A stretch of DNA of 64,000 bases, taken from assembly GCA_024734495.1 (NCBI GenBank), contig JALMQS010000841.1, forward strand, positions 3,838,176-3,902,175, written 5' to 3'. Below, in pieces: positions 1,977-63,276 of this stretch (positions are counted from its first letter, which is position 1; every line of letters starts with the position of its first letter). The stretch comes from Forficula auricularia (lineage: Eukaryota > Arthropoda > Insecta > Dermaptera > Forficulidae). The position numbers and the translations under genes were made by a program. The notes below the pieces were generated by a model. It worked only from the letters and a program-made list of their open reading frames with translations. It had not been told where the DNA came from and did not search any database.

Positions 1977-2492
1977 AAAAATAAATAGTATTAAACCCAT
2001 AAATGTTTGAAATAAAAACAATTCTAAAAAAACAATTAAATACAAAAGTTAGTTTGATTTATTCAAATGAGTTGATAATAACTCTTGTATGATTTGGCAA
2101 TGCGTTGTATTAATACTGCTTATGTTTACATCCAAACATAGCATTTATGTGATTTGAAGTAAATTTCTCAGTAAATTCGTCGGTCAATCATATATTTTAT
2201 TGCAAAAAAAGAAACCTGCATGTTTCAAAAAGCTAATTTTTAGTGTTTTTTTAACTTTATCAATTCAACTAATAGTAGTATAATTCAAGAGAAAGTGTCA
2301 AGGTCTTAAGACTCTGAGAAAATGTTTACATTTTGAAAAATTTTATTTTCAAAATTTTGCTAGCTAATGTGTGATTGAAACTTCACAAAAGCATAGATAG
2401 AGACTTAAACTATTATAAAAAATTAAGTTATAATTATAATCTAATATTTTTTATTTAACATTGGTGGCGAAAGGACCTCCTTAAATTAAGTA
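1977..2492. other. AT-rich unique sequence
   Basis: No recognisable repeat, RNA gene or coding frame. Confidence 0.4.
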
Positions 2493-2765
2493 AAGAAAAT
2501 TAAAAATTTAATTTTTTTTAATATAAGATTCTAGGTAGGTTTTACAAAAATAAAATACAGGATGCTTGTTGGCATGACTATAAATATATTTCGGGGTACG
2601 TCATTTTATATTTTTGTATTCAGTTTTCTCTTTAAACTCCTGAAGATGGGCTCGTACCCCGAAATATATATAGTCATGCTAACAACCATCTCGTCTTTTA
2701 TTTTTGTGAAACCTACCTAGAATCTTTTATTTTTAATTTTTAAAATTTTCTTTACTTTATTTAGA
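2493..2765. mobile_element. Foldback element S1 with hammerhead-like core
   Basis: Inverted arms: left CTAGGTAGGTTTTACAAAAA (about 2531) and right TTTTTGTGAAACCTACCTAG (about 2700), extended by A/T-rich arms to 2493 and 2765. The same end occurs at 30637-30754 (S2). The centre carries CTGAAGA (2640-2646), a GGG/CCC hairpin and GAAAU (2661), matching the hammerhead-type core seen in other families of this window. Confidence 0.7.
2640..2677 (+). ncRNA. Hammerhead-like core, S family
   Basis: CTGAAGA at 2640, extra T, GGG-CTCGTA-CCC hairpin, then GAAAT and an AU palindrome (AUAUAUAU) in the stem III position. Stem I pairing is poor here, so activity is doubtful. S2 (30637-30754) carries a diverged version on the opposite strand. 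Confidence 0.35.
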
Positions 2766-2809: not shown

Positions 2810-2990
2810 ATTCTATCGATATCTCTGTTGAGAAAGGATAAATTTCGAGCACTGCTAGAGGAGAGAAAGGATAAATATCTTGTATTTTTCCCTCAATGAC
2901 ACCTTTTAAAGCCTGAAGAAGGAAGGAAATCCTCCGAAACATTGGTTTTTGAGTGATGAAAAAAATGAATATCTAATAAACCTATTGATG
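2810..2990 (+). mobile_element. Half copy of D-family foldback with hammerhead-like core
   Basis: Only the right half of a D-family palindrome is present: a TCAATGACACCTTTTAAAGC block, CTGAAGA (2913-2919), an AAGGAAGGAAATCCTCC stem-loop and GAAAC (2936-2940), ending with TTGGTTTTTGAGTGA. The last block matches the copy at 31305-31530. H17 would be U and stem I is only partly paired, so this is a decayed copy. Confidence 0.6.
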
Positions 2991-22638: not shown

Positions 22639-22901
22639 CGAGGGTGATCCGCGATTGAAAGTAGGTACACCTCTTTGGAAGTATTTTGGAAGTATTTGGA
22701 AACATTTGGTAGTACTTGGAAATATTTGGAATTACTTGGAAATTTTTAGAATTACTTGGAAATATTTGGAAGTACTTGAAAATATTTGCAATTACTTGGA
22801 AATATTTGGAAGTACATTGAAATATTTGGAAGTACTTGGAAATATTTGGAAATACAAGTGGAAGTAGGTGTACAGCATATTAGGTCGGGGTTCATCCCTC
22901 G
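22639..22901 (+). mobile_element. Minisatellite-bearing TIR element M1
   Basis: Left end CGAGGGTGATCCGCGATTG, then AAGTAGGTACACCTCTTTGG, about 170 bp of the 20-bp tandem unit (AAGTACTTGG + AAATATTTGG variants), then GGAAGTAGGTGTACAGCATA and the right end GTTCATCCCTCG. Left flank GATTACAT, right flank GATTTATT; they do not match, because M1 sits at the joint of a segmental duplication (22434-22638 / 22902-23159). The 111-codon frame here is a by-product of the repeat. Confidence 0.85.
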
Positions 22902-23242: not shown

Positions 23243-23516
23243 GATAGAGTTTTTCTTTAGGAGACGGACTGGTATAAATATACAATTGGATGTTGATGAA
23301 GGCAGTCCAAGGTGGTTGTAAAAAAATAAGACTATATCAGTTTTATTATTTTACATTTATTCGATAACCGACGTTTCGGAGATTTACTCTCTCCTTCTTC
23401 AGGGTCTATATAATTGAGGGGAAGACGAACATCAATTATTATTGGGATTTTCATATGTCATTCATTATATATAAAAAATAAAACAATATATACAAAATAA
23501 AATACGGATTACATTT
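23243..23516 (-). mobile_element. D-family half element inserted in M2
   Basis: Begins GATAGAGTTTTTCTTTAGGA followed by GACGGACTGGTA, the D-family extension motif, then TTGATGAAGGCAGTCCAAGG and the antisense hammerhead-like core (23361-23415). It ends near 23506-23520 with GGATTACATTTATAAA, a copy of the sequence that flanks M2 on the right (23911-23926). The second arm of the palindrome is missing. Confidence 0.7.
23361..23415 (-). ncRNA. Hammerhead-like ribozyme motif
   Basis: Minus strand: CTGAAGA, extra A, stem II GGAGA/TCTCC, GAAAC, ACGU, C17. The first stem I pairs are CCAG/GGUU (one G-U), followed by an internal loop. Stem II differs from the GGAGG/CCTCC family by a compensated pair. 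Confidence 0.5.
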
Positions 23517-23919
23517 ATAAATTACTTGGAAATTTTTAGAATTACTCGGAAATATTTCGAAGTACTTGAAAATATAAGCAATTACTTGGAAATATTTGGA
23601 AGTACTTGGAAACATTTGGAAGTACTTGAAAATATTTGAAAGCACGTGAAAATATTTGGAAGTACTTGGTAATATTTCGAAGTACTTGGAAATATTTGAA
23701 AGTACTTGAAAATATTTGGAAGTAATTGGAAATATTTCGAAGTACTTCCAAATGTTTCCAAGTACTTCAAAATATTTCCAAGTACTTCCAAATATTTCCA
23801 AGTACTTCCGAATATTCCCAAGTACTTCCAAATATTTCTAAGTAATTGCAAATATTTTCAAGTACAAGTGGAAGTAGGTGTACAGCATATTAGGTCGCGG
23901 TTCACCCCTCGGATTACAT

Positions 23920-24186: not shown

Positions 24187-24546
24187 CGAGGGGTGAACCG
24201 CAACCTAGTATGCTGTACACCTACTTCCACTTGTACTTCCAAATATTTCCAAGCACTTCCAAATATTTCCAAGTACTTCCAAATATTTCCAAGTACTTCT
24301 AAATATTTCCAAGTACTTCCAAATATTTCCAAGTAATTCCAAATATTTCCAAGTACTTCCAAATATTTCCAAGTACATCCAAATATTCCCATGTACTATC
24401 AATTATTTCCAAGTGCTTCCAAATATTTCCAAGTACTTCCAAATATTTCTAAGCACTTCCATATATTTCCAAGCACTTCCAAATATTTCCAAGTGCTTCC
24501 AAAATACTTCCAAAGAGGTGTACTTCCAATCGCGGATCACCCCTCG
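24187..24546 (-). mobile_element. Minisatellite-bearing TIR element M3
   Basis: CGAGGGGTGAACCGCAACCT (24187), then TACACCTACTTCCACTTG, about 15 units of (ACTTCCAAAT + ATTTCCAAGT), then AGAGGTGTACTTCC and CGCGGATCACCCCTCG (ending 24546). Exact 8-bp duplication ATAAAAAA at 24179-24186 and 24547-24554. Inverse orientation to M1 and M2. A clean example of the family. Confidence 0.92.
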
Positions 24547-25850: not shown

Positions 25851-25894
25851 GGTTATAATGAAGGGCAGTGCATAAATTATTTAAATTTTAATTG

Positions 25895-26090
25895 AAATGT
25901 TTTTGTTTTGCCGAGAGTAGCAGAGTTAATATTTATAATTAAAAAGACTGATGATGAGGGCCAAGCCTTCGAAACTATAGTCTCAAACAAATAAATAATA
26001 TATATAATATATATATATACAGATATATCATTTCGATATATATGTGTGTATATTTATTTGCATCAAGCAGAGGACAAGCTCTTTGTTTCT
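25895..26090 (+). mobile_element. F-family element with hammerhead-like core
   Basis: GTTTTGCCGAGAGTAGCAGA, then the core at 25948-25982, CAAACAAATAAATAAT, a TA-rich microsatellite, then TTTATTTGCATCAAGCAGAG and GACAAGCTCTTTGTTT. Other F copies or pieces: 35461-35545, 37437-37490, 37915-37973, 48580-48700 and 61957-62075. The order of modules is constant where more than one is present. Confidence 0.65.
25948..25995 (+). ncRNA. Hammerhead-like ribozyme motif, F family
   Basis: CTGATGA (25948), extra T, stem II GAGGGC-CAA-GCCTTC (one G-U), GAAAC (25971), stem III palindrome ACTATAGT, then C (25982) as H17, so the cleavage triplet is GUC. Stem I starts GA/UC, then an internal loop, then AUUUAU/AUAAAU. 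Stem II and stem III are unrelated in sequence to the D family while the core is the same. Confidence 0.5.
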
Positions 26091-26099
26091 CTTTATTTA

Positions 26100-26590
26100 A
26101 ATTTTCGGAGACTTTTTTTCTCTCCTTCTTCAGGGTATTGAATAGTTATTGATGGGTGAGTATAACTATTCAATACAATATCAATAGTTTTGGAGACTTT
26201 TTTCTCTCTTTCTTCAGGGTATTGAATAGTTATTGATGGGTGAGTATAACTCATATACAATATCAATAGTTTTGGAGACTTTTCTCTCTCCTTCTTCAGG
26301 GTATTGAATAGTTATTGATGGGTGAGTATAACTATTCAATACAATATCAATAGTTTTGGAGACTTTTTTCTCTCTTTCTTCAGGGTATTGAATAGTTATT
26401 GATGGGTGAGTATAACTCATATACAATATCAATAGTTTTGGAGACTTTTCTCTCTCCTTCTTCAGGGTATTGAATAGTTATTGATGGGTGAGTATAACTA
26501 TTCAATACAATATCAATAGTTTTGGAGACTTTTTTTCTCTTTATTCAGGGTATTGAATAGTTATTGATGGGTGAGTATAACTATTCATTA
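26100..26590 (-). repeat. Tandem array of 82/84-bp units, each with a decayed ribozyme core
   Basis: CAGGGTATTG starts at 26131, 26215, 26297, 26381 and 26463, with a sixth near 26547: spacings 84, 82, 84, 82, 84. Two unit types alternate (TATAACTATTCAATAC versus TATAACTCATATAC), a two-unit higher-order period of 166 bp. Each unit contains antisense TTCTTCAG...GAGAC; in most the GAAAC box has decayed to CAAAAC. Confidence 0.85.
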
Positions 26591-26592
26591 CG

Positions 26593-26640
26593 CTGAAGAA
26601 GGAGAGAACAAAGTCTCCGAAACGTCGGAAATTGAATAAA
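26593..26640 (+). ncRNA. Hammerhead-like ribozyme motif
   Basis: CTGAAGA (26593), extra A, GGAGA...TCTCC, GAAAC (26619), ACGU and C17 (26626). The 3' strand GGAAATTGAATA would pair with TATTCAATACC, which is present upstream of the core in the neighbouring array units (10 pairs, one mismatch, one bulge), but here the 5' strand is mutated. Confidence 0.5.
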
Positions 26641-27505: not shown

Positions 27506-27679
27506 TTTAAAAAAATAAATAATTAAAAAATAATGACAATTTTTTTAAAATAAATTTTTCATCGTTAAAATTTAAACTTACTAAGATTGGAGTAATTTTT
27601 GGAGACGGATAAGTGAATTAAGTGGATATTGATGAGGCAGTCCAAAAAAAAGAAGAAGATAATTTACACTATCTTTTTT

Positions 27680-27738
27680 ATTCATAAAACCGACGTTTCG
27701 GAGACTATTCCCTACTTCTTCAGGGTTTTGAAAGGTCA
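27680..27738 (-). ncRNA. Hammerhead-like ribozyme motif
   Basis: Minus strand: CTGAAGA (C3 at 27723), extra A, stem-loop to CTCC, GAAAC (27699-27695), ACGU, C17 (27692). Stem I: CCAAAA side to GGUUUU (6 pairs), internal loop, then a second A/U helix. One stem II base is mutated relative to the sister copy at 27865. Confidence 0.55.
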
Positions 27739-27852
27739 GTGAAGGAAATCCAATGCGGCATTCCCCTCTGTCTCCTCTTTCAGTGGCAGTAACAATAATA
27801 TCTTGTATTTCATTCTCAGCAGAATTATAATGTTATATATTTTCTTCACTGA

Positions 27853-27914
27853 CTTTTCAAAACCCTGAAGAGGGGGGGAATAGCCTCCGAAACGTCGGTT
27901 TTATGAATAAAAAG
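27853..27914 (+). ncRNA. Hammerhead-like ribozyme motif, well paired
   Basis: CTGAAGA (27865-27871), GGGGG...CCTCC hairpin, GAAAC (27889), ACGU, C17 (27896; GUC triplet). Stem I: CTTTTCAAAACC with GGTTTTATGAATAAAAAG gives 6 pairs next to the core, an internal loop (C / AUGAAU) and 5 outer pairs. An internal loop in stem I is the usual position of the loop-loop contact in natural hammerheads. Confidence 0.6.
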
Positions 27915-28174
27915 ATAGTGTAAATTATCTTCTTCTCATCAATATCCACTTTAAACTTACTGTTTTAAAAATAAAAAAAATGTGAAAAGGGGACAAATCT
28001 TTGATTTTGATTTTATTAGCAAAACAATTTATTATTTTTGTTTCGCCCTTTTCACATTTCTATTATTTAAAAAGAAAATTTAAAGTGATTAACCCGAAGA
28101 TTTGAGTATCTTTTTATTGAAAAATAGATGGATTCTTTTCAAAAATACAACTCACGGTATTTAAACCAAATATG

Positions 28175-29535: not shown

Positions 29536-29786
29536 CGAGGGGTGAACCGCGATATAATATGCTGTACACCCTACTTCCACTTCCACTTTTATTTCCAAAC
29601 AATTCCAGTGCTTCCAAATATTTCCAAGTAATTCCAAATATTTCCAAGTAATTTCAAATATTTCCAAGTAATTCCAAATATTTCCAAGTAATTCCAAATA
29701 TTTCCAAATAATTCCATTAATTCCAAAATAATTCTAAATAATTCCAAAGAGGTGTACACCTAATTCCAATCGCGGATCACCCCTCG
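29536..29786 (-). mobile_element. Minisatellite-bearing TIR element M4
   Basis: CGAGGGGTGAACCGCGA (29536) to CGCGGATCACCCCTCG (29786). The internal unit has drifted to TTCCAAGTAATTCCAAATA-type and the array is shorter. Flanking 8-mers TTCTAAAA and GTCTAGAA match at 6 of 8, an aged target duplication. Confidence 0.85.
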
Positions 29787-31304: not shown

Positions 31305-31530
31305 TGGAAATTCCGCCCAAGGGTAGTGAAAAAATTCTCTCGAATAAAATAAATTTATTTAATTTTTTCCTCACTCAAAAACCAACGTTTCGGAAGATTT
31401 TCCCTCCTTCAGAGTTTAAAAGGGGTCATTGAGGGACAAATACAAGATACTTCTCCTTGGGCTGCCTTTCCATCACTTATCAATTAAAATTTCTATCAGT
31501 CCGTCTCTCTCCGAAGAGAAAATTTCTTCT
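31305..31530 (-). mobile_element. D-family half element with extension
   Basis: GATGGAAATTCCGCCCAAGG, antisense core at 31384-31412, AAGGGGTCATTGAGGGA, then GGGCTGCCTTTCCATCA and the extension CAGTCCGTCTCTCTCCGAAG on the right. Flanking TTAACTTAAT (about 31295) and TTAACTTGAT (about 31539) match at 9 of 10, a probable target duplication. The core has lost two bases (CTGAAGG). Confidence 0.6.
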
Positions 31531-32586: not shown

Positions 32587-32639
32587 TTTTATTAAACTAT
32601 TATTATCATTTTCGTCCATAATGTGTATTAATTCGAAAG

Positions 32640-32864
32640 TTTATAACGGGGATTAAGGACAAGTTTTCTGTGTAATTTTTTTTATTTTTTAACCAACGTT
32701 TCGTCGACTTTTCCGACTTCTACAGGGCTTAAATAATTACATGACATATTCATCTAAAGTACATTATTTTCTTTTATCTCCGTTACCAATGAAAAACCAT
32801 CAAAAACTTAAATTTCAAAAAATAAAAACTTGTCCTTAATTCCCATTATAAACTTTCGAGGTTT
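32640..32864 (-). mobile_element. Foldback element with GTCG-stem hammerhead-like core
   Basis: Arms: AGTTTATAACGGGGATTAAG GACAAG (32637) and CTTGTCCTTAATTCCCATTA TAAACT (about 32830). One core on the minus strand (32687-32740). The second core is not recognisable. Confidence 0.65.
32687..32740 (-). ncRNA. Hammerhead-like motif with covarying stem II
   Basis: Minus strand: CTGTAGA (one core change, A6 to T), extra A, GTCG-GAAAAGT-CGAC, GAAAC, ACGU, U17. Stem I: C-G, C-G, G-U, A-U, one A-A mismatch, then UUU/AAA. Stem II is entirely different from the GGAGG family yet still complementary. Confidence 0.45.
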
Positions 32865-34640: not shown

Positions 34641-35460
34641 TAACCTCAAGCTAACCGATGCTTTAAGTATTATCGGTGAAATATATATTATCTTAAAACT
34701 TGGTTTGAGGTTGGTGAAATCGGGCGCAAAATACATACTTCATTTATTACATAGTTTATGACCAAGGTGATCTCAACATAAGGAATCAAGTGTGAAATTA
34801 AATTAGGTACTTATATTTTAGTTGTATGCAAATTTTTACTCCTACTATTTATCACTTCTCTTTCTCCAGCTCTTGAGTTTTCCAGTCTTTTATTTTTCCT
34901 CCTTCCATTATTTCCATCTTGCCCTGAGTCTAACTTTTCTTCTTTCAAAAGGCGTACAATGCAATATAAATTTCAAAATCATAAGATATCACTATGGAAT
35001 AACATTAATTTAATAAAAAAAATATGACTAATTTTAAAAGATATCGAATCATTAAATATTTAACATTAACCTTTATATCGTACAATTTTGATTGCTACGA
35101 TAAACTTCGAGGTTTTGTCCAGTCTTGCGGCCCTTTTTGTCATCCTCCTAAGATCTAATCTGAGATTAAAACAACGATTTCGAGGAAATTACTCACAACT
35201 CAAGTCAAAGAAGATGACCTTTCTAATCGCAACACTCTCTCTATCTATAGATCTAGATATACGATCATCAGGTAATCTATGTTAGAGAAAAAGTAATCTG
35301 GTATTTTATGATGCTATCAATTTTAATTGAAAACACAAGGTTAAATATTCATCAAAAGATCTTATTCTGCATTAACGAATTATTAAATGTGTTTGATTAG
35401 AATGGTTTTTAATTTTAACTGGCTTTTCGTCAAGTAAGATCAAAAAAATTTTAATATCCA
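34641..35460. other. Unique sequence
   Basis: No domain in the frames at 34822-35013 and 35088-35285. Bases 35080-35280 are slightly less AT-rich. Confidence 0.3.
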
Positions 35461-35539
35461 TGAAAAATTATATTTATAATTTAAAAAAGACTGATGATGA
35501 GGGCAAAGCCTTCGAAACTATAGTCTCAAACAAATAAAC
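35461..35539 (+). ncRNA. Hammerhead-like ribozyme motif, F family
   Basis: CTGATGA (35491), extra T, GAGGGC-AAA-GCCTTC, GAAAC (35514), ACTATAGT palindrome, C17 (35525). Same core as 25948 with a different loop base. The upstream ATTTATAATTTAAAAAAGA and downstream TCTCAAACAAATAAA supply a weak stem I. Confidence 0.5.
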
Positions 35540-35825
35540 AATATAAGGAACCAAATATTCGTAAAAATCCCAAACACATTCTAAAACGACTAATATGCAA
35601 TGAAAATGTGATGGAAGGCAGGTCAAGGATAATGAAAAATAAAATTCCGAATAAATTTATTGGAACTTTCATCCTCTTAAAAAGCGACTTACGGAGGATC
35701 TTCCTTCCTCCTTCAGGGTTTAAAAGAGTCAATGAAGGAAAATATACAGGAAACTTCCGTCTTCTCTCCTTCAGCAGTGCTTTAATATTGCCGATTTGTG
35801 ACAGAAATATCAATAGAATATTTTT
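35540..35825 (+). mobile_element. Left arm of a D-family palindrome split by 2.4 kb
   Basis: Inverted relative to 38212-38497. Shared blocks: AATCCCAAACACATTCTAAAA, TGATGGAAGGCAG, TCATCCTCTTAAAAAGCGAC, GTCAATGAA.GAAAATATACA and AATATCAATAGAATATT. The hammerhead-like core (35683-35720) has decayed. Confidence 0.8.
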
Positions 35826-40371: not shown

Positions 40372-41365
40372 AACCGACTTCAAAAAAGGAGGAGGTTCTC
40401 AATTCGACTGAATTTTTTTTTGTGTTTCTATGCTACCTGATATCTTCGCCAATTGTGAAACGATTTTGATGATTTTTTTACATTGGGTTCAGTTTAATTT
40501 CCGATTGGTCCCTTTTTTTTCATTGCTATTGGACCTTTTTGGCTATGTTTGTTTAGGCATAACTTCTTTGTTTATGAACCGATTTCGATGATTCTTTTTA
40601 TATTGGAAAGAGGGTACCTTAGGAATGGTGCCATATTAATTTGGTCAAGTTTTGATGATATGATCAATGACCAATTAACGTAAATCTCCAATTCTTATGA
40701 GCAAATATTCGAAATTATAATAAAAAAAATCAATCTTAAAACGTTCATTTAAAACCTGCAAACGTTTCTAGTGAATTTCTATATTTATGAATTTTATTTT
40801 ATTATCATTTTTTGATTCATTCGCCTGACCCTTTCTCTTATGAGATGCATGCAAGGTATTATATTAAGTCACTATTAATAACATCACTAAAAAGAGAAAA
40901 AAAAAAAATTTCCCTTTGGCCTTGGTGGAAAGAGAAAAATAATTTTTATGAAAAAAATAAAACCGACTTCAAAAAAATTAAATACAACAAATAAAATAAT
41001 AAAACTCAAAAATAAAATAAAATGTACTAAAAGGTATAAAATAATTATCAAATTTAGTTACAACTAAACGACGAAATATTTACATGAAATCACTTTTTGA
41101 AGTCGGTGCTAAACAAACTATATAAGCGACCGTACCGGCCAATCGTACTAAGTAAAATCCGTCGAGTTTGATTCATAAAATGTATATGTTGGGCACCGAC
41201 TTCAAAAAGTGATTTCATGTAAATATTTCGTCGTTTAGTTGTAACAAAATTTGATAATTATTTTATACCTTTTAGTGCATTTTATTTTATTTTTGAGTTT
41301 TATTATTTTGTGTGTTGGATTTAATTTTTTTGAACTCGGTTTTATTTTTTTTTATAAAAATTATT
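40372..41365 (+). mobile_element. CCGACTTC-family repeat, copy 3
   Basis: AACCGACTTCAAAAAAGGAG start; head to 40955; foldback tail 40958-41365. The spacer of the palindrome is in the opposite orientation to that of copy 2 (CTATATAAGCGACCG...ATTCATAAAATGTATATG versus CATATACATTTTATGAAT...TATAGTTTG), so the central spacer has flipped between copies. Confidence 0.8.
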
Positions 41366-41523
41366 GTTTCTTTGAGGTGACTAAAGTATCTCCTTCATCT
41401 GAGTTTTAGACTTTCGAAGCTAAGTTTCATTACTCATTTGGAAGTGCCGTTAAATCTCTAGAAAAGAGCTCAAAGCAACCAGACGGCGAAGAACACAATC
41501 GAACTCAGAACCCCTTATTCACT

Positions 41524-42477: not shown

Positions 42478-42535
42478 GTTTAACTTTAAAAGTTCCTGTT
42501 CAAAAATGCATATAGAAAAAAATTTTATTTAGATT

Positions 42536-42803
42536 AAAAATTCAGTTTATTGGACAAAGTTTTTTTATTGAAGTTCTTCTTCAATTTTTGTACAACGTTT
42601 CGTCTCTCTCGAGACTTTTTCAAGTACTCAATTGGCTAGAACAACATTGGTTGAAATAAAGATAAAAATAACTGAGACATAGTAGAAAAAGTCTCGAGAG
42701 AGACGAAACGTTGTACAGGGGTTGAAGAGGAACTTCAATAAAAAAACTTTGTCCAATAAACTGAATTTTTAATCTACTAATTATAATGGACATTAATCAA
42801 CAT
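42536..42803. mobile_element. Foldback element with U3/A8 ribozyme core and 15-bp target duplication
   Basis: Palindrome ATTAAAAATTCAGTTTATTG ... CAATAAACTGAATTTTTAAT, plus an unpaired extension of about 28 bp on the right. Exact 15-bp duplication AATTTTATTTAGATT at 42521-42535 and 42804-42818. Both arms carry the GTCTC-GAGA-GAGAC / GAAACGTT core. The long duplication argues for retrotransposition. Confidence 0.8.
42581..42634 (-). ncRNA. Hammerhead-like motif, U3/A8 class
   Basis: Minus strand: TTGAAAA, extra A, GTCTC-GAGA-GAGAC, GAAAC, ACGU, U17. Stem I: GUAC/GUAC next to the core, internal loop GA/AAA, then CAAUU/AAUUG. The core differs from CTGANGA at positions 3 and 8, and the two changes preserve a Watson-Crick pair (C-G to U-A). 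The sister core at 42686-42715 has lost its stem I. Confidence 0.5.
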
Positions 42804-42818
42804 AATTTTATTTAGATT

Positions 42819-44380: not shown

Positions 44381-45117
44381 TTATGGGCTGGGCGGGGGTC
44401 GAATACGGGTCTTAAATAGCTGAAGGTTATAAGTCGCGGGAAAGATGGTGGCAGGGAGCGAGTTCCAGTCTCTGGAGGTCATAGGGATGAAAGAGTTAGC
44501 GAAAGCGCTTGTTCGATTTTTATCCAACTTGACAGCGAAGGGGTGCTGAGCATTAGGAAACCGCGTGTTTCTCGTAAAGAGGGCTTTAGGGGGGATAATT
44601 GATTTCAGCTCGACTGAACAGACACCGTGATAGTATCTGTAGTACAGGGAAAAGACAGAAACGGTTCTTCGGTGAGCCAGGGAGTCGAGTGAGTTGTTAA
44701 GAGCCGGGTCTCCTATTAGTTTAATTGCTCGCTTCTGAATCGCATCCAGTGTAGCAAGAGAATGCTTGTAGGCACCCCTCCACAGATTAGAGCCATATTC
44801 GAGACAGGGACGAATTTGAGCCTTATACAGTATAAGAAGTTGACTGGGAGTATAACAGCGCCTAGACCTAAATAAGAGACCAAGCTTGCGCGCTGCAGCT
44901 TTAGCAGTGGTTGAGATATGGTCATTCCATGAAAGGCAGACCCTAGAGTTACGCCTAACATTGAAATTTTATCCCTGAATTCTAGTGAGCTTGAGTCGAA
45001 TGATATGTTTGGGAGGTTTCTGTCGACGCGCCTAGAAATAAGGCAACACTGAGTTTTCCCTGCTTTGAAGTTAACTAAGTTTTGCGATCCCCAGTTTTTA
45101 AGTCTGCCTAAGTCTAA
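44381..45117 (-). pseudogene. Non-LTR retrotransposon ORF2 C-terminal region, frameshifted
   Basis: Minus strand, 183 codons from the tryptophan codon at 44929 to the TAA at 44381-44383, with LLFRSRRCYTPSQLLILYKA, QIRPCLEYGSNLW, LDAIQKRAIKLIGDP, HRRTVSVFSLYYRYYHG and WNSLPATIFP. This is the thumb/C-terminal region that follows the YVDD-type palm in jockey/CR1-like arthropod LINEs. The upstream part (45117-44931: LKNWG.QNLVNFKAGKTQCC, then LGVTL) is in another frame, so one base is missing near 44930. The catalytic palm and endonuclease are absent (5' truncation near 45118-45130). The 81-codon ATG frame at 44716-44961 is a shadow. The 3' non-coding tail extends to about 44290. Confidence 0.9.
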
Positions 45118-45321
45118 ATTTATTGATTATTTAATCATTATTGTTTGATAATTAACTTGAAAAATTGTTAAAGATAATTATTAGGAACGAAATTTTCTCT
45201 GGAGAGAGACGGAGTGGTAGAAATTTTAATTGAATGTAATGGAAGGCAGCCCAGAGGTAGTGAGGAAAGAAAAATTTAACACATATCAAATATGGTGTAA
45301 TTTATTGGAATTCTTCCTCCT

Positions 45322-45378
45322 TTCCTTTCAAACCGACGTTTCGGAGGATTTTTCCCTCCTTCTTCAGGGTTTCAAAGG
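45322..45378 (-). ncRNA. Hammerhead-like ribozyme motif, best copy (antisense arm)
   Basis: Minus strand: stem I 5' strand CCTTTGAAACC, CTGAAGA (C3 at 45367), extra A, GGAGGGAAAAATCCTCC stem-loop, GAAAC (45342-45338), ACGU palindrome, C17 at 45335 (GUC), stem I 3' strand GGTTTGAAAGG. Stem I has 10 Watson-Crick pairs of 11 with one central G-G. All invariant core bases (C3, U4, G5, A6, G8, A9, G12, A13, A14) are present. The extra nucleotide after A9 is tolerated in at least one natural hammerhead, that of chrysanthemum chlorotic mottle viroid. Stem III is too short to close alone, so it would need a dimer. Confidence 0.65.
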
Positions 45379-45583
45379 GTCAATGAATGAAACAAATAAT
45401 AATTCCTTTCTTCTCTCCACAGTGGTGTTCAAAAACATTCTTCATTTTTAACAAAGGCATAGAAAAACAATTTCCTCCTAATGAAAAAAAAATTGTTTTT
45501 CTATGCCTTTGTTAAAAATGAAGAATGTTTTTGAACACTACTGTGGAGAGAAGAAAGGAATTATTATTTGTTTCATTCATTGA

Positions 45584-45640
45584 CCCTTTGAAGCCCTGAA
45601 GAAGGAGATAAAAATCCTCCGAAACGTCGGTTTGAAGGGA
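45584..45640 (+). ncRNA. Hammerhead-like ribozyme motif, best copy (sense arm)
   Basis: CTGAAGA (45596), extra A, GGAG...CTCC hairpin, GAAAC (45621), ACGU, C17 (45628). Stem I CCCTTTGAAGCC / GGTTTGAAGGGA: 10 pairs (two G-U), one G-G mismatch. The A-to-G change in the 5' strand keeps a G-U pair. Confidence 0.65.
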
Positions 45641-45748
45641 AAGGAGGAGGGATTCCAATAAATTACACCTTATTTGATATGTGTTAATTTTTTCTTTCCT
45701 CACTACCTCTGGGCTGCCTTCCATTACATTCAATTATAATTATTAGGA

Positions 45749-47874: not shown

Positions 47875-48180
47875 CGAGGTGTTATCCGCGATTGGAAGTA
47901 GGTATACACCTCTTTGGAAGTATTTTGGAACTACTTGGAAATATTGGGAAGTACGTGGAAATATTTCCAAGTACTTGGAAATATTTGGAAGTGTTTGGAA
48001 ATATTTGGAAGTACTTGGAAATATTTGGAAGTACTTGGAAATATTTGGAATTACTTGGTAATATTTGGAAGTACTTGGAAATATTTGGAAATACTTGGAA
48101 ATATTTGGAAATACTTGGAAATATTTGGAAGTATAAGTGGAAGTAGGTGTACACCATATTAGGTCGCAGTTCACCCCTCG
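47875..48180 (+). mobile_element. Minisatellite-bearing TIR element M5
   Basis: CGAGGTGTTATCCGCGATTG ... GGTCGCAGTTCACCCCTCG. Exact 8-bp duplication GTATTTTG at 47867-47874 and 48181-48188. The interior has about 11 units of AAGTACTTGGAAATATTTGG. Open frames of 60-148 codons exist in four frames, all from the repeat. Confidence 0.92.
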
Positions 48181-49008: not shown

Positions 49009-49165
49009 TAAGATTGAAGTAATTTTTGGAAACGGAATGATAACTGAATTGAGTGGATATTGATGAGGCAGTCCTTCAGGGACTTTCAAAGCCCTGAAGA
49101 AGGAGGGAATATTCTCCGAAACGTAGTTTTATTAATTAAAAAGATAGTATAAATTATTTTCTTAT
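49009..49165 (+). mobile_element. D-family copy with internal deletion
   Basis: The left extension and GGATATTGATGAGGCAGTCC (as at 27596-27640) are joined directly to the right arm core (CTGAAGA at 49094, GAAAC at 49118). The left ribozyme half is deleted. The cleavage triplet would be GUA and stem I is partly lost. Confidence 0.65.
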
Positions 49166-49442: not shown

Positions 49443-49715
49443 TTTTTATAAATTAAAAAAAATACAAATCTTTTATAAAAAACATTCCAAAACACGTTTA
49501 TTCAAAGTCAAACGTTTCGGGAGAATTTCTTCCTTTTTCAATGACAAAATTTTTTTCAAAAAAAGAAAAATTTGCTTTCTCTAGAATTTAGCTTTAATTC
49601 TAAATTCTAGAGAAAGCAACTTTTTTTTTGAAAAAACTTTGTCATTGAAAGGGGGAGAAGTTCTCCCGAAACGCTTGACTTTGAATAAACGTGTTTTGGA
49701 TTTTATATATATACT
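49443..49715. mobile_element. Foldback element, U3/A8 ribozyme class
   Basis: Arms CCAAAACACGTTTATTCAAA / TTTGAATAAACGTGTTTTGG and TTTGCTTTCTCTAGAATTTA / CTAAATTCTAGAGAAAGCAA. Cores at 49500-49550 (-) and 49645-49680 (+). The related element at 59165-59955 is interrupted. Confidence 0.8.
49500..49550 (-). ncRNA. Hammerhead-like motif, U3/A8 class
   Basis: Minus strand: TTGAAAA, extra base, a hairpin closed by GGGAG/CTCCC-type pairs, GAAAC, ACGU, U17. Stem I next to the core is GUCA/UGAC (4 perfect pairs), then an internal loop. In the relative at 59240 the same stem is CCA/UGG, a compensated change. Confidence 0.45.
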
Positions 49716-49722
49716 ATATATA

Positions 49723-50369
49723 TATGTCATTAAAGGTTTTTTGGGTTTCTCCGCGTGGGTTTGAGCGTTTTACTCGACGTTTCGGCTCTGCTTTTGAAGC
49801 CATTTTTAAGAGAGGGGGTGGGTGTTCTACGTGGTCTTAACTTTGTAGTCCAAGGTTCGTTTTGGAGGGTGTCTTCCGAGTGAATTTCTTCAGTCGGAGG
49901 GTTGGGTATATTTGGATATTTGGGAGGTTTTGGGTGTTTTGTGGTTGAGTGTGTATTACTTACATTATGGTGGCTGGCGTCTCGGCTGTGGCTGTTTTGA
50001 GAATGTTGGGCACTATCGATACGTTCACTGTCACGGTTTGTAGGCAAATGTGTAACAGTGACAGTGAACGTATCGATAGTGCCCAACATTCTCAAAACAG
50101 CAACAGCCGAGACGTCAGCCACCATAATGTAAGTTATACACCCTCAACCACAAAACACCCAAAACTTCCTAAATATCCAAATCTACCCAACCTTCCGACT
50201 GAGGAAATTCACTCGGAAGACACCCTCCAAAACGAACCTTGGACTACAAGGTTGAGACCACGTAGACCACCCACCCCCTCTCTTGAAAATGGCTCCAAAA
50301 GGAGAGCCGAAACGTCGAATAAAACTCTCAAACCCACGCGGAGAAGCCCGAAAAACCTCTAATGACATA
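49723..50369. mobile_element. Q foldback element, arms open in frame
   Basis: A palindrome of about 647 bp with ends TATGTCATTAAAGGTTTTTT / AAAAACCTCTAATGACATA, centred near 50047. Both arms are open in the frame read outward: 131 codons (-, 49730-50125) and 137 codons (+, 49949-50362). The translation is hydrophilic (S, T, N, H, P-rich) with THSTTKHPKPPKYPN-type stretches and a basic C-terminus, and matches no family I know. The arms differ at about 15 residues, so constraint is not obvious. The frame runs through the hammerhead-like core near its 3' end. Confidence 0.7.
50278..50320 (+). ncRNA. Hammerhead-like motif, U3/A8 class, in Q element
   Basis: TTGAAAA (50283), extra T, GGCTC-CAAAAG-GA-GAGCC, GAAAC (50309), ACGU, C17 (50316; GUC). 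Stem I adjacent to the core is only 2-3 pairs; in the opposite arm (about 49770-49812) it is CUC/GAG. Confidence 0.4.
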
Positions 50370-51761: not shown

Positions 51762-52378
51762 TTTCGAATATTTACGCGGACAAGGGCTCATATGGTTCTA
51801 AATAAATTTAAAAACAAAATATCCCCCAAGTTTCAAGTCTCTATCTCAATTTTAACCTATTGCTACACACCGATTAAGTTTCCCATCTAAATAACATGTG
51901 GTTTTTGGCATTGAACGATCATTTTTTTATTCCTGCCAAAGTAATGGTTCGAAAAAAGTTGAAACTCTGTAGACTTTATCCTTATAATAGTAGCTATCCC
52001 TCAGAATTTCTACAGATTTTTAGCTATTATAATTTTGGAGTCTATTATAACTTACTAATACTAAGATATAGCAGTATTTTATCTAGATGTAGCTCCAAAA
52101 TTGTAATAGCTAGAAATCTATAAAAAATCACAAGGATAGCTACTATTATAAGTATAAAGTCTACAGAGTTTCAATTTTTTTGAACTATTACTTTGGCCGG
52201 AATAAAAAATTGATCGTTCAATGCCAAAAACCCCATGTTGTTTGGATGGGAAACTTAATCACCGTGTAGCACTAGATTAAAATTGACATAGAGACATGAA
52301 ATTTGGGGGATTTTTTTTTATTCATTTAGAACCATATTCGCCCATGTCCGCGTAAATATCTAAAAATATCCAAAAAGC
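51762..52378. mobile_element. G-family foldback MITE, copy 2
   Basis: Both arms are present (TTCGAATATTTACGCGGACA ... TGTCCGCGTAAATATC) with the internal landmarks of the family. The outermost GGGTGCTCC ends are missing. Confidence 0.85.
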
Positions 52379-52499
52379 AGCCTTTTTTTTTTTTTTTTGG
52401 TTTTGTGAAATAGTACAAGAATAAATTTTAGTTTCAATCAATTACTTGTATTGCGGGCAAGATGGTTAGGCTGATTTTAAATTTAATACAATTTTAATT
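52379..52499. other. Unique sequence with a poly-T run
   Basis: Nothing recognised. Confidence 0.2.
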
Positions 52500-52948
52500 G
52501 AAATTAATGGAAGGTAGCCCAGGGGTAGTGAGGAAAGAAATAATTAACACATATCCAAATAAAGTGTAATTTATTGGATACCTTCCTCCTTTCCTTTCAA
52601 ACTGACGTTTCGGAGGATTCTTCCCTCCTCCTTCAGGGTTTTAAATGGTCAATGAAGGAAATAAATAAAATCCTTCTTTCCTCTCTCCACTAATATAATT
52701 AAGAAAAGGAAGAAGAGAGAAAAAAAATTGTTTTTCTATGCTTCTGCTAAAGAAAAATAAAATTTTAAACACTGCTGTGGAAAGAGGAAGGAAACATCCC
52801 TTGAAACCCTGAAGAAAGAGGGAAGAATCCTTCGAAACGTCGGTTTGAAAGGAAGGGAGGGAGGATTCCAATAAATTACACCTTATTTGATATGTGTAAA
52901 TATTTGCTTTCCTTACTACCTCTCGGCTGCCTTCCATTACTTTCAATT
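52500..52948. mobile_element. D-family foldback
   Basis: AATGGAAGGTAGCCCAGGGG ... GGCTGCCTTCCATTA. Same sub-family as 45187-45735. The left core has a mutated box (CTGAAGG, 52607-52636); the right core (52798-52852) is intact. Confidence 0.8.
52798..52852 (+). ncRNA. Hammerhead-like ribozyme motif
   Basis: CTGAAGA (52809), extra A, stem II AGAGG.../...CCTT(C), GAAAC (52834), ACGU, C17 (52841). Stem I CCTTGAAACC / GGTTTGAAAGG: one base lost in the 5' strand, otherwise paired. Confidence 0.55.
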
Positions 52949-53309
52949 ATTTTAAGATTTTTATAAAAGAAGAAATTTTCTCATTGGAGAGAGACGGACT
53001 GGCAGCCCAAGGACAGTGAAAAAAAAATTATTACATTTTCAAATAATATGTTTTTATTGAACTGTCATTTCCTCTTTCCTTTAAAACAAACGTTTCGGAG
53101 GATTCTAATTAGAGGGGGAAAAAATTCTATTCACTGCTTCTGTTAAGAACTGCTAGAGGATAGAAAGAAACATCTTGTTGTTTCTTTCATTGACCCTTTG
53201 AAACCCTGAAGAAGGAGGGATGAATCCTTCGAAACGTTGATTTTAAAGGAAACGGGAAAAAGACTCTCAGTCCAATAAATACACCTTATTTGGAAACGTA
53301 ATAATTGTT
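52949..53309. mobile_element. D-family foldback with left extension
   Basis: Extension GAAATTTTCTCATTGGAGAG AGACGGACTGGCAG, palindrome from AGCCCAAGGACAGTG to CCAATAAATACACCTTATTT. It lies directly downstream of the previous D copy and directly upstream of CCGACTTC copy 4. Confidence 0.75.
53195..53248 (+). ncRNA. Hammerhead-like ribozyme motif
   Basis: CTGAAGA (53206), extra A, GGAGGGATGAATCCTTC hairpin, GAAAC (53231), ACGU, U17 (53238). Stem I CCCTTTGAAACC / GATTTTAAAGG: the central G-G mismatch of the best copy is here G-U, at the cost of one C-A near the core. Confidence 0.55.
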
Positions 53310-54270
53310 AACCGACTTCAAAAAGGAAGGAGGTTCTCAATTCGACTGAATTTATTTATTTTTTGTGTCTATGTTACCTCATATCTTCGTCAATTGTGAA
53401 CCGATTTTGATGATTTTTTTTTTTGCATTGGGTTCAGTCTAGTTTCCGATTGGTCCCGTTTTTTTTCATTGGTATTGGACCTTTTTTGCTATGTTTGTTT
53501 AGGCATAACTTCTTTGTTTATGAACCGATTTAGATTATTCTTTTTATATTTGAAAGAAGGTACCTTAGGGGTGGTCCCATATTAATTTGGCCAAGTTCTG
53601 ATGATATGATGAATAACGAAATAACGTAAATCTCCAATTCTTGTCGGCAAATAATCGAAATTATAATAAATAAAATCTTTTTATAAAAAAAAAATCTTAA
53701 AACGTTAATTTAAAACTCGCAACGTTTCGAGAGAATTTCTATATTTATGAATTTAATTTTATTATCATTTTCTGATTCATTCGCCCGACTCTTTCTCTTA
53801 CGAGATGCATGCAAGGTATTATATTAAGTCACTATTAATAACATCACTAAAAAGAGAAAAATAAAAATAAATTTTATAAAAAAATAAATAAAACCGACTT
53901 AAAAAAATTAAATGCAACAAATAAAATAATAAAACTCAAAAATAATATAAAATGCACTTAAAGGTATAAAATAATTATCTAATTTAGATGAAATCACTTT
54001 TTGAAGTCGGTGCTAAACAAACTATATAAACAAGCTTATCCGCTAATCGTACTAAGTAAAATCCGTCGAGTTTGATTCATAAAATGTATATGTTTGGCAC
54101 CGACTTCAAAAAGTAATTTCATGTTAATATTTCGTCGTTTAGTTGTAACTAAATTAGAAAATTATTTTATACCTTTTAGTGCATTTTATTTTATTTTTGA
54201 GTTTTATTATTTTATTTGTTGCATTTAATTTTTTTGAAGTCGGTTTTATTTTTTTTATAAAAATTATTTT
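53310..54270 (+). mobile_element. CCGACTTC-family repeat, copy 4
   Basis: AACCGACTTCAAAAAGGAAG start; head to 53890; foldback tail 53893-54270. The spacer orientation matches copy 3. Confidence 0.8.
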
Positions 54271-54879
54271 ATAAAAGATTTTCATGGATTTACATTGACT
54301 CGTAGATATGTTGTGTTAGATGATATTGGAAGTAAGATAGACTGGCTTCCTGAAACCATTCCTAGGTGTGGCTCATTCTATTTATTATTTCTCTTGGAAT
54401 GTGAACATTACATTTTTAAATTACCTATTTATATATAGATGAAGGATATATGGAGTTTCCCGTTGAATAAAACACACCTTAATTGACAGAAAATCCATCG
54501 TTTCGCATCAATTAAAAACATTTTCAGTTCATCCATAGATATTTGTATTCGCTTTGATCAAAGGCAGTCAGATTGTATCGCACCCCTTAATAGGTATAAA
54601 TTTATACCTTTTTCTGTAAATCTTTAAAATTTTCACATGCTTTTAATTAGCTTGCTTTTTTAGTTGGTTAGCTCATTAGTTGAAGTCAAAGCTTGCGACC
54701 CACTTCGACATATCCTGAAATTTCGCAATTTTTACCTCAAGAAACTTGATTTTACCCTTTCTCCACTTCCATCACCTACCGGATTTTTGAATCGTCAGAA
54801 AAATCCATCAATATGGATATTTATTATTATCAAACTTGAGTTTACACTTTCTATATTATTATTAGATGAAGGAGGTATC
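54271..54879. other. Unique sequence with a decayed ribozyme-like repeat
   Basis: 54445-54590 contains GAAGGATATATGGAGTTTCC, then TTGAATAAAACACACCTTAA, ATCGTTTCGCATC and TTTTCAGTTCATCC: an antisense CTGAAAA...GAAACGAT relative of the element that follows, with no good stem II. No gene seen. Confidence 0.35.
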
Positions 54880-54914
54880 AGCCAAAGTTAGATGCGATGG
54901 GTTCAATAAAACAC

Positions 54915-54975
54915 GCTGAATAAAACGTTTCGGTCTGAATTTATTTGGCCATCTTCAGTTAATTGGGAGTTATAC
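54915..54975 (-). ncRNA. Hammerhead-like motif, GGCC stem
   Basis: Minus strand: CTGAAGA (C3 at 54958), extra T, GGCC-AAATAAATTCA-GACC, GAAAC, ACGU, U17. The sister copy at 55545-55575 has GGCC/GGCC in stem II but GAAAA. Stem I is A/U-rich and only partly paired. Confidence 0.4.
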
Positions 54976-55014
54976 ACAAAATACGGTACACATATGTGAT
55001 CGAATCAAGTCTTG

Positions 55015-55460
55015 TCAAAAATAATAAGCTGACGTGTTCTGATGTGGCCATCCACTTGACTTTACCATACAACCTGGCCCTTCTCTTATATTTAATATTT
55101 AATCAAATTATTTATAATCATGTAGGGGAGGGGGGTTAGTTTTTGCCTTTTTAGGCTTCTGGGGTCCCACTGATTATGTATACAAAATTTGGGTGAGTTT
55201 GGAACAAGAGCCTAGATTTTCATTTTTTGACCATAGCCCCCCCCCCCCCCCACACGCCATTTTGGGCGGTTATTTTTTGCATTTTTAGACTTCTGGGGTC
55301 ACACTGGTTATGCATACAAAATTTGGTTGAGTTTGCTCAAATGCCCTAGATTTTTAATTTTAACCCCCCCCCCGCCTTAATTTTGGGTCGATATGCGTTA
55401 AAATCTAATCAGCTCTTAATCATATGATTAACCATTACCATACCCTGTATGGTAAAGTCA
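55015..55460 (+). mobile_element. P-family element, nested
   Basis: AATAAGCTGACGTGTTCTGA, TGGCCATCCACTTGACTTTA, CCATACAAC ... CATACCCTGTATGGTAAAGT. The part between GGGTCGATATGCG and the right end is deleted. Confidence 0.8.
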
Positions 55461-55692
55461 AAATTGTAGCTTCATGTAAATTTATAACGTGCCTGTGCTC
55501 AAGAATCATATGTGTACCGCATTTTGTGTATAACTCCCAATTAACTGAAGATGGCCAAATAAATTCAGGCCGAAAAGTTTTATTCAGGGTGTTTTATTGA
55601 ACCCAGCGCATCCAACTTTGGCTGATACCGCCTCCTTTATCAAATACAGTTTCATCACAGCCTCGAACTCTAACAATATTTATTGTTAGGAC

Positions 55693-55997
55693 CCCGGGGT
55701 GATCCGTGATTGGAAGTAGGTGTACACCTCTTTGGAAGTATTTGGGAGTACTTGGAAATATTTGGGAGTACTTGGAAATATTTGGGAGTACTTGGAAATA
55801 TTTGGGAGTACTTGGAAATATTTGGGAGTACTTGGAAATATTTGGAAGTGCATGCAAATATTTGGAAGTACTTGGAAATATTTGGGAGTACTTGGAAATA
55901 TTTGGAATTACTTGGAAATATTTGGAATTACTTGGAAATATTTGGAAGTACAAGTGGAAGTAGGTGTACGGCATATTAGGTCGCGGTTCACCCCTCG
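55693..55997 (+). mobile_element. Minisatellite-bearing TIR element M6
   Basis: Left end mutated (CCCGGGGTGATCCGTGATTG), right end GGTCGCGGTTCACCCCTCG. About 11 units, including a GGGAGTACTTGGAAATATTT variant that has spread locally (five consecutive copies). No clear 8-bp duplication. Confidence 0.88.
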
Positions 55998-57900: not shown

Positions 57901-58290
57901 TCCTTAATCCGTGGGGATAATAAGTCTTCCGGCAATCGATCTGAATTTGAACCCCGGGGCGCATGTTGCGTAATCTTTCGTTGCATAACCTGCTGCTCGT
58001 GTGTGTCTGTTATGTTCTCATCCTATTGGCTGTAAATTTGACCCCTCGCTTGTTGCGACGCTCAAATTTAAGAACCAATTCGCGTGCACATTGAATTTAT
58101 GGGATGCTCTTCTCTCTGCGATGGTGATAAATGGTCTCTGGACAGTCCTGGAAGGCTCTTCGCGACTCCGCTGTCAGCCCAGTCCTGGAGTCCGTGCCAG
58201 AAGCGCGTTTACAAGGCTGACAATTGAAATCTGTAAATGCACTATCTGGTACGACATTCCAGCACGCACGATCCGTCCCCGCTGATGGCT
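57901..58290. promoter_or_regulatory. GC-richer island, candidate regulatory DNA
   Basis: Non-repetitive, with CCCCGGGGCGCATG and TGATAAATGG, CTGACAATTGAAATC and GTAAATGCAC stretches. The 94-codon frame at 58001-58285 has no recognised domain. Confidence 0.25.
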
Positions 58291-59164: not shown

Positions 59165-59229
59165 TAATAAAAAAAAAGTAAAAATACAAATATTTTATAA
59201 AAAAAACAATCCAAAATACGTTTATTTAA

Positions 59230-59275
59230 AAAACCAAACGTTTCGGGAGAATTTCTTCTTTTTTCAATGGATAAA
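59230..59275 (-). ncRNA. Hammerhead-like motif, U3/A8 class
   Basis: Minus strand: TTGAAAA, A, AGAAGAAATTCTCCC hairpin, GAAAC (59244-59240), ACGU, U17. The stem I start is CCA/UGG. Partly decayed stem II. Confidence 0.4.
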
Positions 59276-59330
59276 ATTTGCGAAAAAAGAAAAAAAATTG
59301 TTTTCTCTAGAATTTAGAAAACAACACTAA

Positions 59331-60790: not shown

Positions 60791-61335
60791 TACCCTCTCG
60801 TTTGTTGTAACATCTACACTGCGCTACTGCATTGCATTTCTTGTTATCAATAAATCATCAAAAAGTTTTCTTATCATTTTTGTGTTGATATCTCCCTTCC
60901 TTGGAAACTTATTTGCCTTATTTTCTTATCTTCTTTTTTTTCTTTTCATTCTTGAATAGGTATTAATTAGCTCAGGGGAAAAGAGACACGCTGTACTAAT
61001 TTAGAAACCAGATAGATACCTACCTTTTTTTTATATTTAATTAAGAAACTCGTTTACTTACTAAGCGGATGAAATTTATCAAAAAATTCCAATGAAATTA
61101 GCATAGAAGGGGGACAAGGAATAAACCAGAAAAAGAGACCATTTCTTCCAGGGATTATAGCGTCAAGCGGTCATAATCAAAAGGGAATTTCGAAAGATAT
61201 CGACTGGGTTTGTATAATATATAGACATTGAAAAATATGCATAAGATTCTTGAGAGGCAACAAGCTGAAACATGTTTCTACGGAACCTTCTGTAAAGAAA
61301 ATTTTGTTTTTTTAAGAGAAAATGAATGAGCGTTA
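60791..61335. other. Unique sequence
   Basis: Nothing recognised. Confidence 0.3.
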
Positions 61336-61950
61336 GGGTGCTCCTTATTTTGGATATTTTCCAATATTTACGCGGACAGATGCTCATATGATTCTAAATA
61401 AATAAAAAAATATCCCCAAGTTTTAGGTCTCTATCTCAATTTTAACACAGCGATTAAGTTTCCCATCTAAATAACATGGGATTTTTGGCATTGAACGATC
61501 AATTTTTTATTCCTGCCAAAGTAATGGTTCAAAAAATTGAAACTGTAGACTTAATCCTTATAATAGTAGCTAGCTCTCAGAATTTTTACCGATTTTTAGC
61601 TATTATAATTTTGGAGTCTATAACTTTCTAATACTAAGGTACTAGCAGTATTTTATCTAGATGTAACTCCAAAATTGTAATAGCTAAAAATCTATAAAAA
61701 TTCAGAAGGATAGCTACTATTATAAGTATAAAGTCTACAGAGTTTCAATTTTTTTGAACTATTACTTTGGCCGGAATAAAAAATTGATCGTTCAATGCCA
61801 AAATCCCCATGCTATTTAGATGGGAAACTTAATCACCGTGTAGTACTAGATTAAAATTTAGATAGAGACATGAAACTTTGGGAATATTTTTTTTTTTTAT
61901 TTATTTAGAACCGCGTAAATATTCGAAAATATCCAAATTAAGGAGCACCC
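61336..61950. mobile_element. G-family foldback MITE, copy 3 (complete)
   Basis: GGGTGCTCCTTATTTTGGAT ... AATTAAGGAGCACCC, flanked by TA (61334-61335 and 61951-61952). A 615-bp near-complete palindrome and the best-preserved termini of the family. Confidence 0.9.
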
Positions 61951-61956
61951 TAATGA

Positions 61957-62080
61957 GGATATTATCTGCTTTATGCAAATAAACACACATCTATATATAA
62001 TAGAAAATAATAACATTATTTACGTACATATATAATTTTATTTGTTAGAGATTATAGTTTCGAATACTTGAGTTTATCGA
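61957..62080 (-). mobile_element. F-family copy with decayed core
   Basis: Minus strand: TTCGAAACTATAATCTCTAACAAATAAA (in pieces), an AT-rich microsatellite, then TTTATTTGCATAAAGCAGAT. The CTGATGA box and stem II are missing. Confidence 0.55.
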
Positions 62081-62944: not shown

Positions 62945-63185
62945 TAGGCGAATTAAGTAGGTTATAATGAAACGCAATCCATAAATTATAATTATAGAAA
63001 CTTTTTCTCTCCTTCTTTGGTGTATTGTATAGTTATTGATAGGTGAGTATTAGTTGTGTACTCACAGTCAACTTCAGGAGTGTAGTATTTAATTTTATTT
63101 ATTTTCTTAGAAAGACTGGTAAGCGAAATAAGTAGGTTATAATGAAGAAGGAGAGAAAAAAGTCTCCGAAACGTCGGAAATAAAA
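62945..63185. mobile_element. D-family copy, rearranged
   Basis: The extension ATACGGACTGGTAGGCGAAT and AGTAGGTTATAATGAA occur twice (62935 and 63115). TGAAGAAGGAGAG...TCTCCGAAACGTCGG lies at 63143-63178 (C3 replaced by A). Partial palindrome (TTTTTCTCTCCTTCTTTGG at 63004). Same sub-family as 25851-26690. Confidence 0.6.
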
Positions 63186-63276
63186 AATCTATACATTTAT
63201 AATCGGCTATTATTAAAGATCGGCTGACTAGGAAGTGAAGATGAAGATGTAAATTTCGACTTTTTCTACTGACGAT

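Follow-up and report, generated by a model that had tools for sequence, protein, structure and literature searches.

Minimal hammerhead ribozymes were reportedly described from Penelope-like elements (PLEs) by Cervera and De la Pena in 2014 and by Lunse, Weinberg and Breaker in 2017. According to excerpts of the published accounts, these hammerheads lack helix III (PMC6155905, PMC7229834) and are reported to act as dimers (PMC6466107). They have the core bases, stems I and II, a palindromic stem III where the helix is missing, and a home in PLE repeats. The hammerhead cores of Forficula auricularia described here are like them in all of these respects. They differ in that most lie in inverted pairs without an open reading frame (ORF), and that some families carry U3-A8 in the core.

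Three other systems are close. Inverted pLTRs of Penelope, as far as described in excerpts of two papers, are likewise joined head to head, with short duplications, an optional tail on one side and a palindromic junction; they are found on either side of an ORF or of captured DNA, or stand solo (PMC3846280, PMC8969392). Here, in contrast, the pair alone makes up a family, with hundreds of first-look candidates. The Anolis element PAc also has a minimal hammerhead near the start of reverse transcription; both target strands are cleaved and extended by its protein, which has two adjacent internal start sites separated by the length of an optional tail (PMC11167929). PAc differs in being autonomous and in keeping C3-G8, and the main text of that paper describes no foldback product (PMC11167929). 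Metazoan retrozymes are also short non-coding repeats with type I hammerheads; in the excerpt drawn on they are head-to-tail tandems and most of their hammerheads are canonical, whereas the repeats here are inverted and minimal (PMC7229834).

The window, that is, the whole stretch of 64,000 nucleotides analysed, contains the following foldback of family A. Cores are named below by the position of C3 and, where minus, the strand.

45187..45735, family A foldback: two head-to-head arms, each with an outward core; arms 94-96% complementary; 40 scored copies in the genome
45174..45186, left target-site duplication (TSD), 13 bp, exact repeat of 45736-45748
45736..45748, right TSD, 13 bp, exact repeat of 45174-45186
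45187..45221, minus strand, family A tail of about 35 nt, on the left arm only; the right arm has no match to it
45321..45381, minus strand, minimal hammerhead of the left arm, with C3 at 45367 and cleavage predicted to follow C17 (45335)
45582..45642, plus strand, minimal hammerhead of the right arm, with C3 at 45596 and cleavage predicted to follow C17 (45628)

Our preferred reading, which we hold to be probable, is that the cores are minimal type I PLE hammerheads and that the foldbacks are ORF-less pairs of terminal repeats made from two RNA copies.

Cores and their two stems

A preliminary description of this DNA had reported more than 20 cores; 27 were tabulated (CUGANGA, an extra base, stem II and GAAA), variants and decayed copies included. 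Each of the 16 positions it listed has a core at that place and on that strand. Departures from the listed motif are GAAAT at 2640, CTGTAGA at 32725- and GAAAA at 55545. The extra base after A9 is present in every family; at 27865 it is G. Several window copies are decayed, departing from the core at bases other than 3 and 8. AATAAA lies at most 50 nt after the predicted C17 in 22 of the 27 cores, compared with 13.8% of 50-nt stretches.

A strict scan of the window (CTGANGA, a stem of at least 3 pairs, GAAAC) gave 10 matches, compared with 5 summed across 20 dinucleotide shuffles. In a free scan, core positions 3, 7 and 8 were unconstrained and one extra base followed A9. Across 264 kb it gave 24 matches (10 in the window, 14 in another 200 kb) and none in 8 shuffled sets. 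The 200 kb come from two places (100-kb blocks) of contig C845 (L048-L067) and played no role in the definition of the motif. The strict pattern had no match in viral contigs; phage records likewise gave none. Seven strict matches in prokaryote genomes (GC 0.56-0.70) were taken as chance, the ORFs having been inspected in two of them (L004, L005). The following cores of the window lie outside any detected foldback:

2899..2957, plus strand, core with C3 at 2913
23356..23416, minus strand, core with C3 at 23402
31370..31426, minus strand, decayed core with C3 at 31412
49080..49139, plus strand, core with C3 at 49094
59223..59281, minus strand, family G core (U3-A8) with position 3 at 59267
63128..63189, plus strand, decayed core with A at position 3

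The stem pairing table covers 25 of the 27 cores (2 were left out). Pairing was scored in nine family representatives; for the random expectation, 5' and 3' halves were dealt anew among them. Pairing in stem II helped to select some of the copies; stem I played no part in finding them. In families B and D the cleavage site was positioned by hand. The first four pairs of stem I are formed in 28/36 cases (17.0 ± 3.2 by random re-pairing; 6/20000) and the first six in 32/54 (24.0 ± 3.4; 185/20000). For the first four pairs of stem II the figure is 34/36 (21.8 ± 2.8; 0/20000). For 11 representatives of the 14 matches in the other 200 kb, 30/44 stem I pairs are formed (20.3 ± 3.7; 170/20000). A MAFFT alignment (A2) holds 17 of the 27 cores, with 10 left out. 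Of its cells 74.5% pair, compared with 62.7 ± 1.9 in shuffled alignments; 13 of 15 pairs changed on both sides, compared with 9.1 ± 1.7; slid partners pair worse. The hammerhead reading was to be given up if there were no covariation, or no excess over shuffled controls. Stems I and II do covary and the cores do exceed shuffles; the reading is supported.

Not every core is equally complete. A stem I of 10-11 bp, claimed for the best copies, is seen at 45367- (10 of 11 pairs); in families B and D stem I is weak. Both stems otherwise pair as in the minimal PLE hammerhead, and the conserved core CUGANGA ... GAAA ... NUH is present, with families E, F and G departing at positions 3 and 8. When folded without constraint, 45367- and 42623- formed stems I and II only. 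Helix III is missing; in its place stands mostly ACGU, and in family B ACUAUAGU, both of which are palindromes. None of the Rfam hammerhead models matches, even at E <= 5, and membership of the three-helix Rfam hammerheads was rejected for lack of a covariance-model match. A covariance model of our own (R1) has 30 matches in the window at E <= 0.001; these are not counted as proof because 17 of the cores had trained it. As judged from sequence, the cores are of the minimal hammerhead type published for Penelope-like elements, without helix III.

Foldbacks and the link to Penelope-like elements

The census of foldbacks started from 46 inverted-repeat rows. Of these, 40 were taken (6 left out), and 37 compact foldbacks were retained after three wide spans had been removed. 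The preliminary description had held that most foldbacks here are, or descend from, self-cleaving RNAs; this is not supported, a core being present in 11 of the 37. These 11 fall into about nine sequence types by our own grouping, and one of them is a tandem array at 26435-26623. All 18 of their cores point outward. Within the wide spans that were left out, two cores read inward (25948, and 27865, which has its own foldback). No clear TSD is found in 8 of the 11, which counts against the preferred reading. The remaining core-bearing structures are as follows:

2482..2763, family D foldback with a weak core on the plus strand, 2640 (GAAAT; stem I pairs poorly)
26103..26640, 84-bp units in tandem that carry part of the hammerhead, with core 26593 on the plus strand at the end
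27583..27949, foldback with cores 27723- and 27865 (plus); left arm longer at its outer end
27571-27582 and 27950-27961, 12-bp TSD of the preceding foldback
32633..32859, family H foldback, core 32725- (CTGTAGA)
42536..42803, family F foldback, U3-A8 core 42623- and decayed core 42683 (plus); right arm longer
42521-42535 and 42804-42818, 15-bp TSD of the family F foldback
49474..49709, family G foldback, U3-A8 cores 49541- and 49645 (plus)
49723..50369, family E foldback, U3-A8 cores 49809- and 50283 (plus); no TSD found
52495..52949, relative of the family A foldback with cores 52636- and 52809 (plus); no clear TSD
53023..53309, foldback related to family A, core 53206 (plus); no clear TSD
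54860..55646, family C inverted pair, cores 54958- and 55545 (plus), 510 nt apart

The head-to-tail tandem order of metazoan retrozymes is not that of these repeats: the 11 compact foldbacks are inverted, and there is one 84-bp array with partial cores. In this array (26103-26591) about six copies of the unit carry a partial hammerhead beside an inner palindrome, a tandem form adjoining foldback forms. Among the foldbacks without a core, two groups are seen by eye, each with short strings in common: one comprises 1246-1661, 12380-12802, 40929-41373 and 53864-54270, and the other 14316-14958, 51768-52359 and 61333-61953. A PLE-repeat piece (61952-62070) abuts the end of the last of these at 61953. 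Another coreless foldback, 6231-6961, has a 12-bp low-complexity duplication. A 20-bp unit (TTGGAAATATTTGGAAGTAC and its reverse) also forms arrays in the window, on either strand, at 22675-22855, 23519-23865, 24233-24513, 29593-29747, 47914-48133 and 55732-55951. An open frame of 195 aa (44381-44968, minus strand) resembles, by eye, the end of a LINE-type reverse transcriptase.

The link to Penelope suggested earlier is supported: this genome has an element encoding reverse transcriptase (RT) and GIY-YIG domains, and its terminal repeat contains the motif. Of 3423 first-look candidates for GIY-YIG matches, 150 were scored, with frames of up to 864 aa. Contig C563 has three such matches 2.9 kb apart, in tandem; its frame at L080 (857 aa) matches RVT_1 (E 1.6e-16) and GIY-YIG (8e-6). 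RT and GIY-YIG in one frame, together with tandem copies, fit an autonomous PLE as the source of family B. A family B hammerhead stands just before the ORF in four of the seven ORF-start regions fetched (L074, L075, L076, L078). No core was found in the other three that were read (L077, L079, L081), which counts against the preferred reading. The window contains these family B pieces:

25887..26094, plus strand, piece of the terminal repeat of the RT and GIY-YIG element, core 25948 (plus); 25928-26094 is 85% identical to L074, and the inverted piece that precedes it (25927-25887) 98%
35457..35545, plus strand, second family B piece, core 35491 (plus), 88% to L074
48680..48709, plus strand, short family B piece, core partly deleted

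Family B is PLE sequence by homology, because the L074 repeat matches the window pieces 25928-26094, 25887-25927 and 35457-35545 as well as shorter ones. In the comparison with L074, a repeat in common with the RT and GIY-YIG element was shown for family B only, and PLE coding sequence had no tblastn match in the window; both points count against the preferred reading. In the 200 kb the PLE protein had one match, of 75 residues. By their anatomy, families A and F resemble PLE terminal repeats that are joined head to head and lack an ORF: they have a hammerhead, outward cores, TSDs (8-18 bp) and, on one arm only, a tail of some 27-36 nt. Families C, D, E, G and H look like PLE repeats from the core alone. 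The preliminary description had spoken of at least eight unrelated families. They look instead like one kind of element, head-to-head Penelope terminal repeats.

Two arms, one tail and a varying centre

The genome search with family A gave 2042 candidates, of which 40 were scored and 38 of these read (L010 and L019 match in reverse, and L035 is a duplicate of L033). A full-length foldback is present at each of the 40 scored loci. A duplication of at least 8 bp lies near the ends in 35 of the 38 copies, and the best matches in the first 18 copies measure 8-18 bp. No listed locus has a tail on both arms, because the reversed matches begin at query 32-52, or at 96 in a single truncated copy. Most copies have TTTTTTTGCA at the tail end, ahead of the duplication, which places an A run at the RNA 3' end. 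To our knowledge such a run is not a PLE feature, and it counts against the preferred reading.

Family F has the same outer anatomy. At ten loci the two outer ends form separate rows; the longer row extends to query 268 and the shorter one ends at 237-252. In four copies with duplications of 12-14 bp (the end limits are those of these four; L070 and L071 were left out), one arm ends ..TTTTTAATC(T), or in L073 ..TTTTTAACAATC. The other arm ends 28-33 nt further out, at ..AATCAACATA(ATTT). The outer ends are near-constant; the centre differs each time in all four, and the inner lengths of these young copies differ in both arms.

Inverted repeats and duplications are also features of DNA transposons (TIR or MITE), which would move as DNA and carry the hammerhead by chance. 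That the foldbacks are such elements is very improbable: the outer ends are unequal instead of matching, the duplication length varies between 8 and 18 bp instead of being fixed, an A run stands at one end, the hammerhead occupies the same place in both arms and family B is linked to PLEs. LINE twin priming does not place the same segment in both arms; it was set aside by reasoning alone.

The arms of a family A copy are related to each other. Non-consensus bases common to both arms of a copy number 102, compared with 28.0 ± 5.9 after re-pairing (maximum 50, n=1000); without L035 the figures are 96 and 26.1 ± 5.5. At nine segregating sites in 38 copies, the arms do not differ in 15 copies, differ at one site in 15 and at two to four in 8. 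The mean arm difference is 0.071 within a copy and 0.083-0.092 between copies. The left arm is closest to its own right arm in only 2 of 38 copies, which speaks against a simple reading. It would suit a foldback that is copied as a unit, its arms being equalised later by gene conversion and its joint varied by central deletions; so would the full-length foldback at all scored family A loci, and gene conversion and loss of the centre are known behaviours of palindromes. Against it, single bases found in no other copy occur in both arms at scattered sites, and the inner lengths differ in both arms of the four young family F copies. Copying as a unit is given a slim chance.

The centre of family A is recognisable in 36 of 38 copies and measures 0 to 94 nt. 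It can be oriented in 23: the left arm reaches further in 9 and the right arm in 14, and the further-reaching arm often extends to the palindromic CTTAATTAAG. A palindrome at the inner end of many copies, varying centres and arms alike within a copy could all result from self-priming, in which the cDNA (or an antisense RNA template) folds at the palindromic RNA 5' end and copies the second arm from the first. For rotifer Penelope, whose inverted pLTRs have a single tail and junctions that are palindromic, this is the interpretation that the authors favour in the excerpt drawn on (PMC3846280). It is unlikely here. The second arm must stop about 30 nt short of the tail every time, and the fixed rule of one tail is left unexplained; L016 and L026 are among a few copies whose arms carry differing subfamily bases, which asks for two templates.

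These data suggest instead that every insertion builds its own palindrome, using one RNA in two copies, and the preferred reading can be put as a series of steps. A short non-coding RNA, consisting of a 5' segment, the hammerhead, AAUAAA and a 3' tail, would be bound by a PLE protein, which is how families A and F would be moved. These cores may cleave RNA, their stem III being reduced to a palindrome able to pair only between two RNAs. Reverse transcription on this RNA would be primed from both ends of a staggered break. One break end would start at the distal site and yield the tailed arm; the other would start about 30 nt further in and yield the tailless arm. The two cDNAs would stop at different points close to the 5' end of the RNA and then be joined head to head. 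In vitro, the Anolis protein showed no start-site difference between the two strands (PMC11167929); this counts against the preferred reading because one tail per copy needs such a difference. A further elaboration is that the stem III palindrome serves as a pairing device that brings together two template RNAs, one per break strand, and that a natural U3-A8 lineage is still spreading. Palindromes would then have exactly one tail because one complex copies one RNA into each strand. This elaboration is rather doubtful.

The motif could also be a dead relic, its shape kept by descent in related repeats and without cleavage. In one published PLE, mutating the ribozyme did not stop insertion in vitro, and the site yielded no RNA ends (PMC11167929); several window copies are decayed. 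Set against this are the compensatory changes, which affect positions 3 and 8 as well as both stems, and the distribution of variants in family A. Two-arm variants are rarer in the hammerhead (8 vs 89 one-arm) than outside it (88 vs 390; p = 0.016), and the core is kept in 54 of 74 arms, compared with 38.6 expected from the outside rate. One-arm variants per site are also somewhat fewer in the hammerhead (1.64 vs 2.00-2.45), so that the deficit is a hint of selection, not proof. On balance a dead relic is improbable.

Core pair U3-A8 and its place in the genome

Among the 24 free-scan matches, positions 3 and 8 are C-G in 18, U-A in 4, A-G in 1 and C-A in 1. The association of U3 with A8 has a one-sided Fisher p = 0.0005, which is a guide only because matches of one family are not independent. 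The four U-A matches are 50283 (plus), 42623- and one in each 100-kb block, and their stems differ. Family G (49541-, 59267- and 49645 on the plus strand) is U-A too and was missed by the free scan. A single old U-A copy would mean little, because each of the two steps is a transition and transitions are the common form of decay. Family F, however, is young: over query 1-152, which is the arm that holds the U3-A8 core, 24 rows (23 loci) show 100% identity. At six loci all 11 cores found read TTGAAAA; stem I is GUAC/GUAC in 10 of these and GUAC/GUAU in 1.

Base exchanges at core pair 3-8 have been studied in other hammerheads. In the open-licence PMC literature, searched with a small set of word forms, no paper on natural U3-A8 hammerheads was found, and the use of U3-A8 instead of C3-G8 in some families, one of them recently amplified, is possibly new as read from these sequences. 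In a published PLE hammerhead, cleavage is lost with either C3G or G8C alone and returns in part when the two are combined (PMC11167929). The U3-A8 families are natural double changes at the core pair of a much-studied ribozyme, and are suited to a simple cleavage test.

The window also contains the precursors of mir-317 (22139-22229) and mir-277 (58179-58267), both on the plus strand and 36 kb apart; these two matches mark the DNA as arthropod. Many of the plus-strand hammerhead cores fall between them. In flies these two microRNAs are co-transcribed; if the same is true here, active cores would cut that transcript.

The insertion of PLEs is unsettled, as is the cause of the frequent inverted, one-tailed arrangement of their copies. 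Young copies of short families that lack an ORF allow this insertion to be read from sequence, through the outer end of each arm and the varying joint between them.
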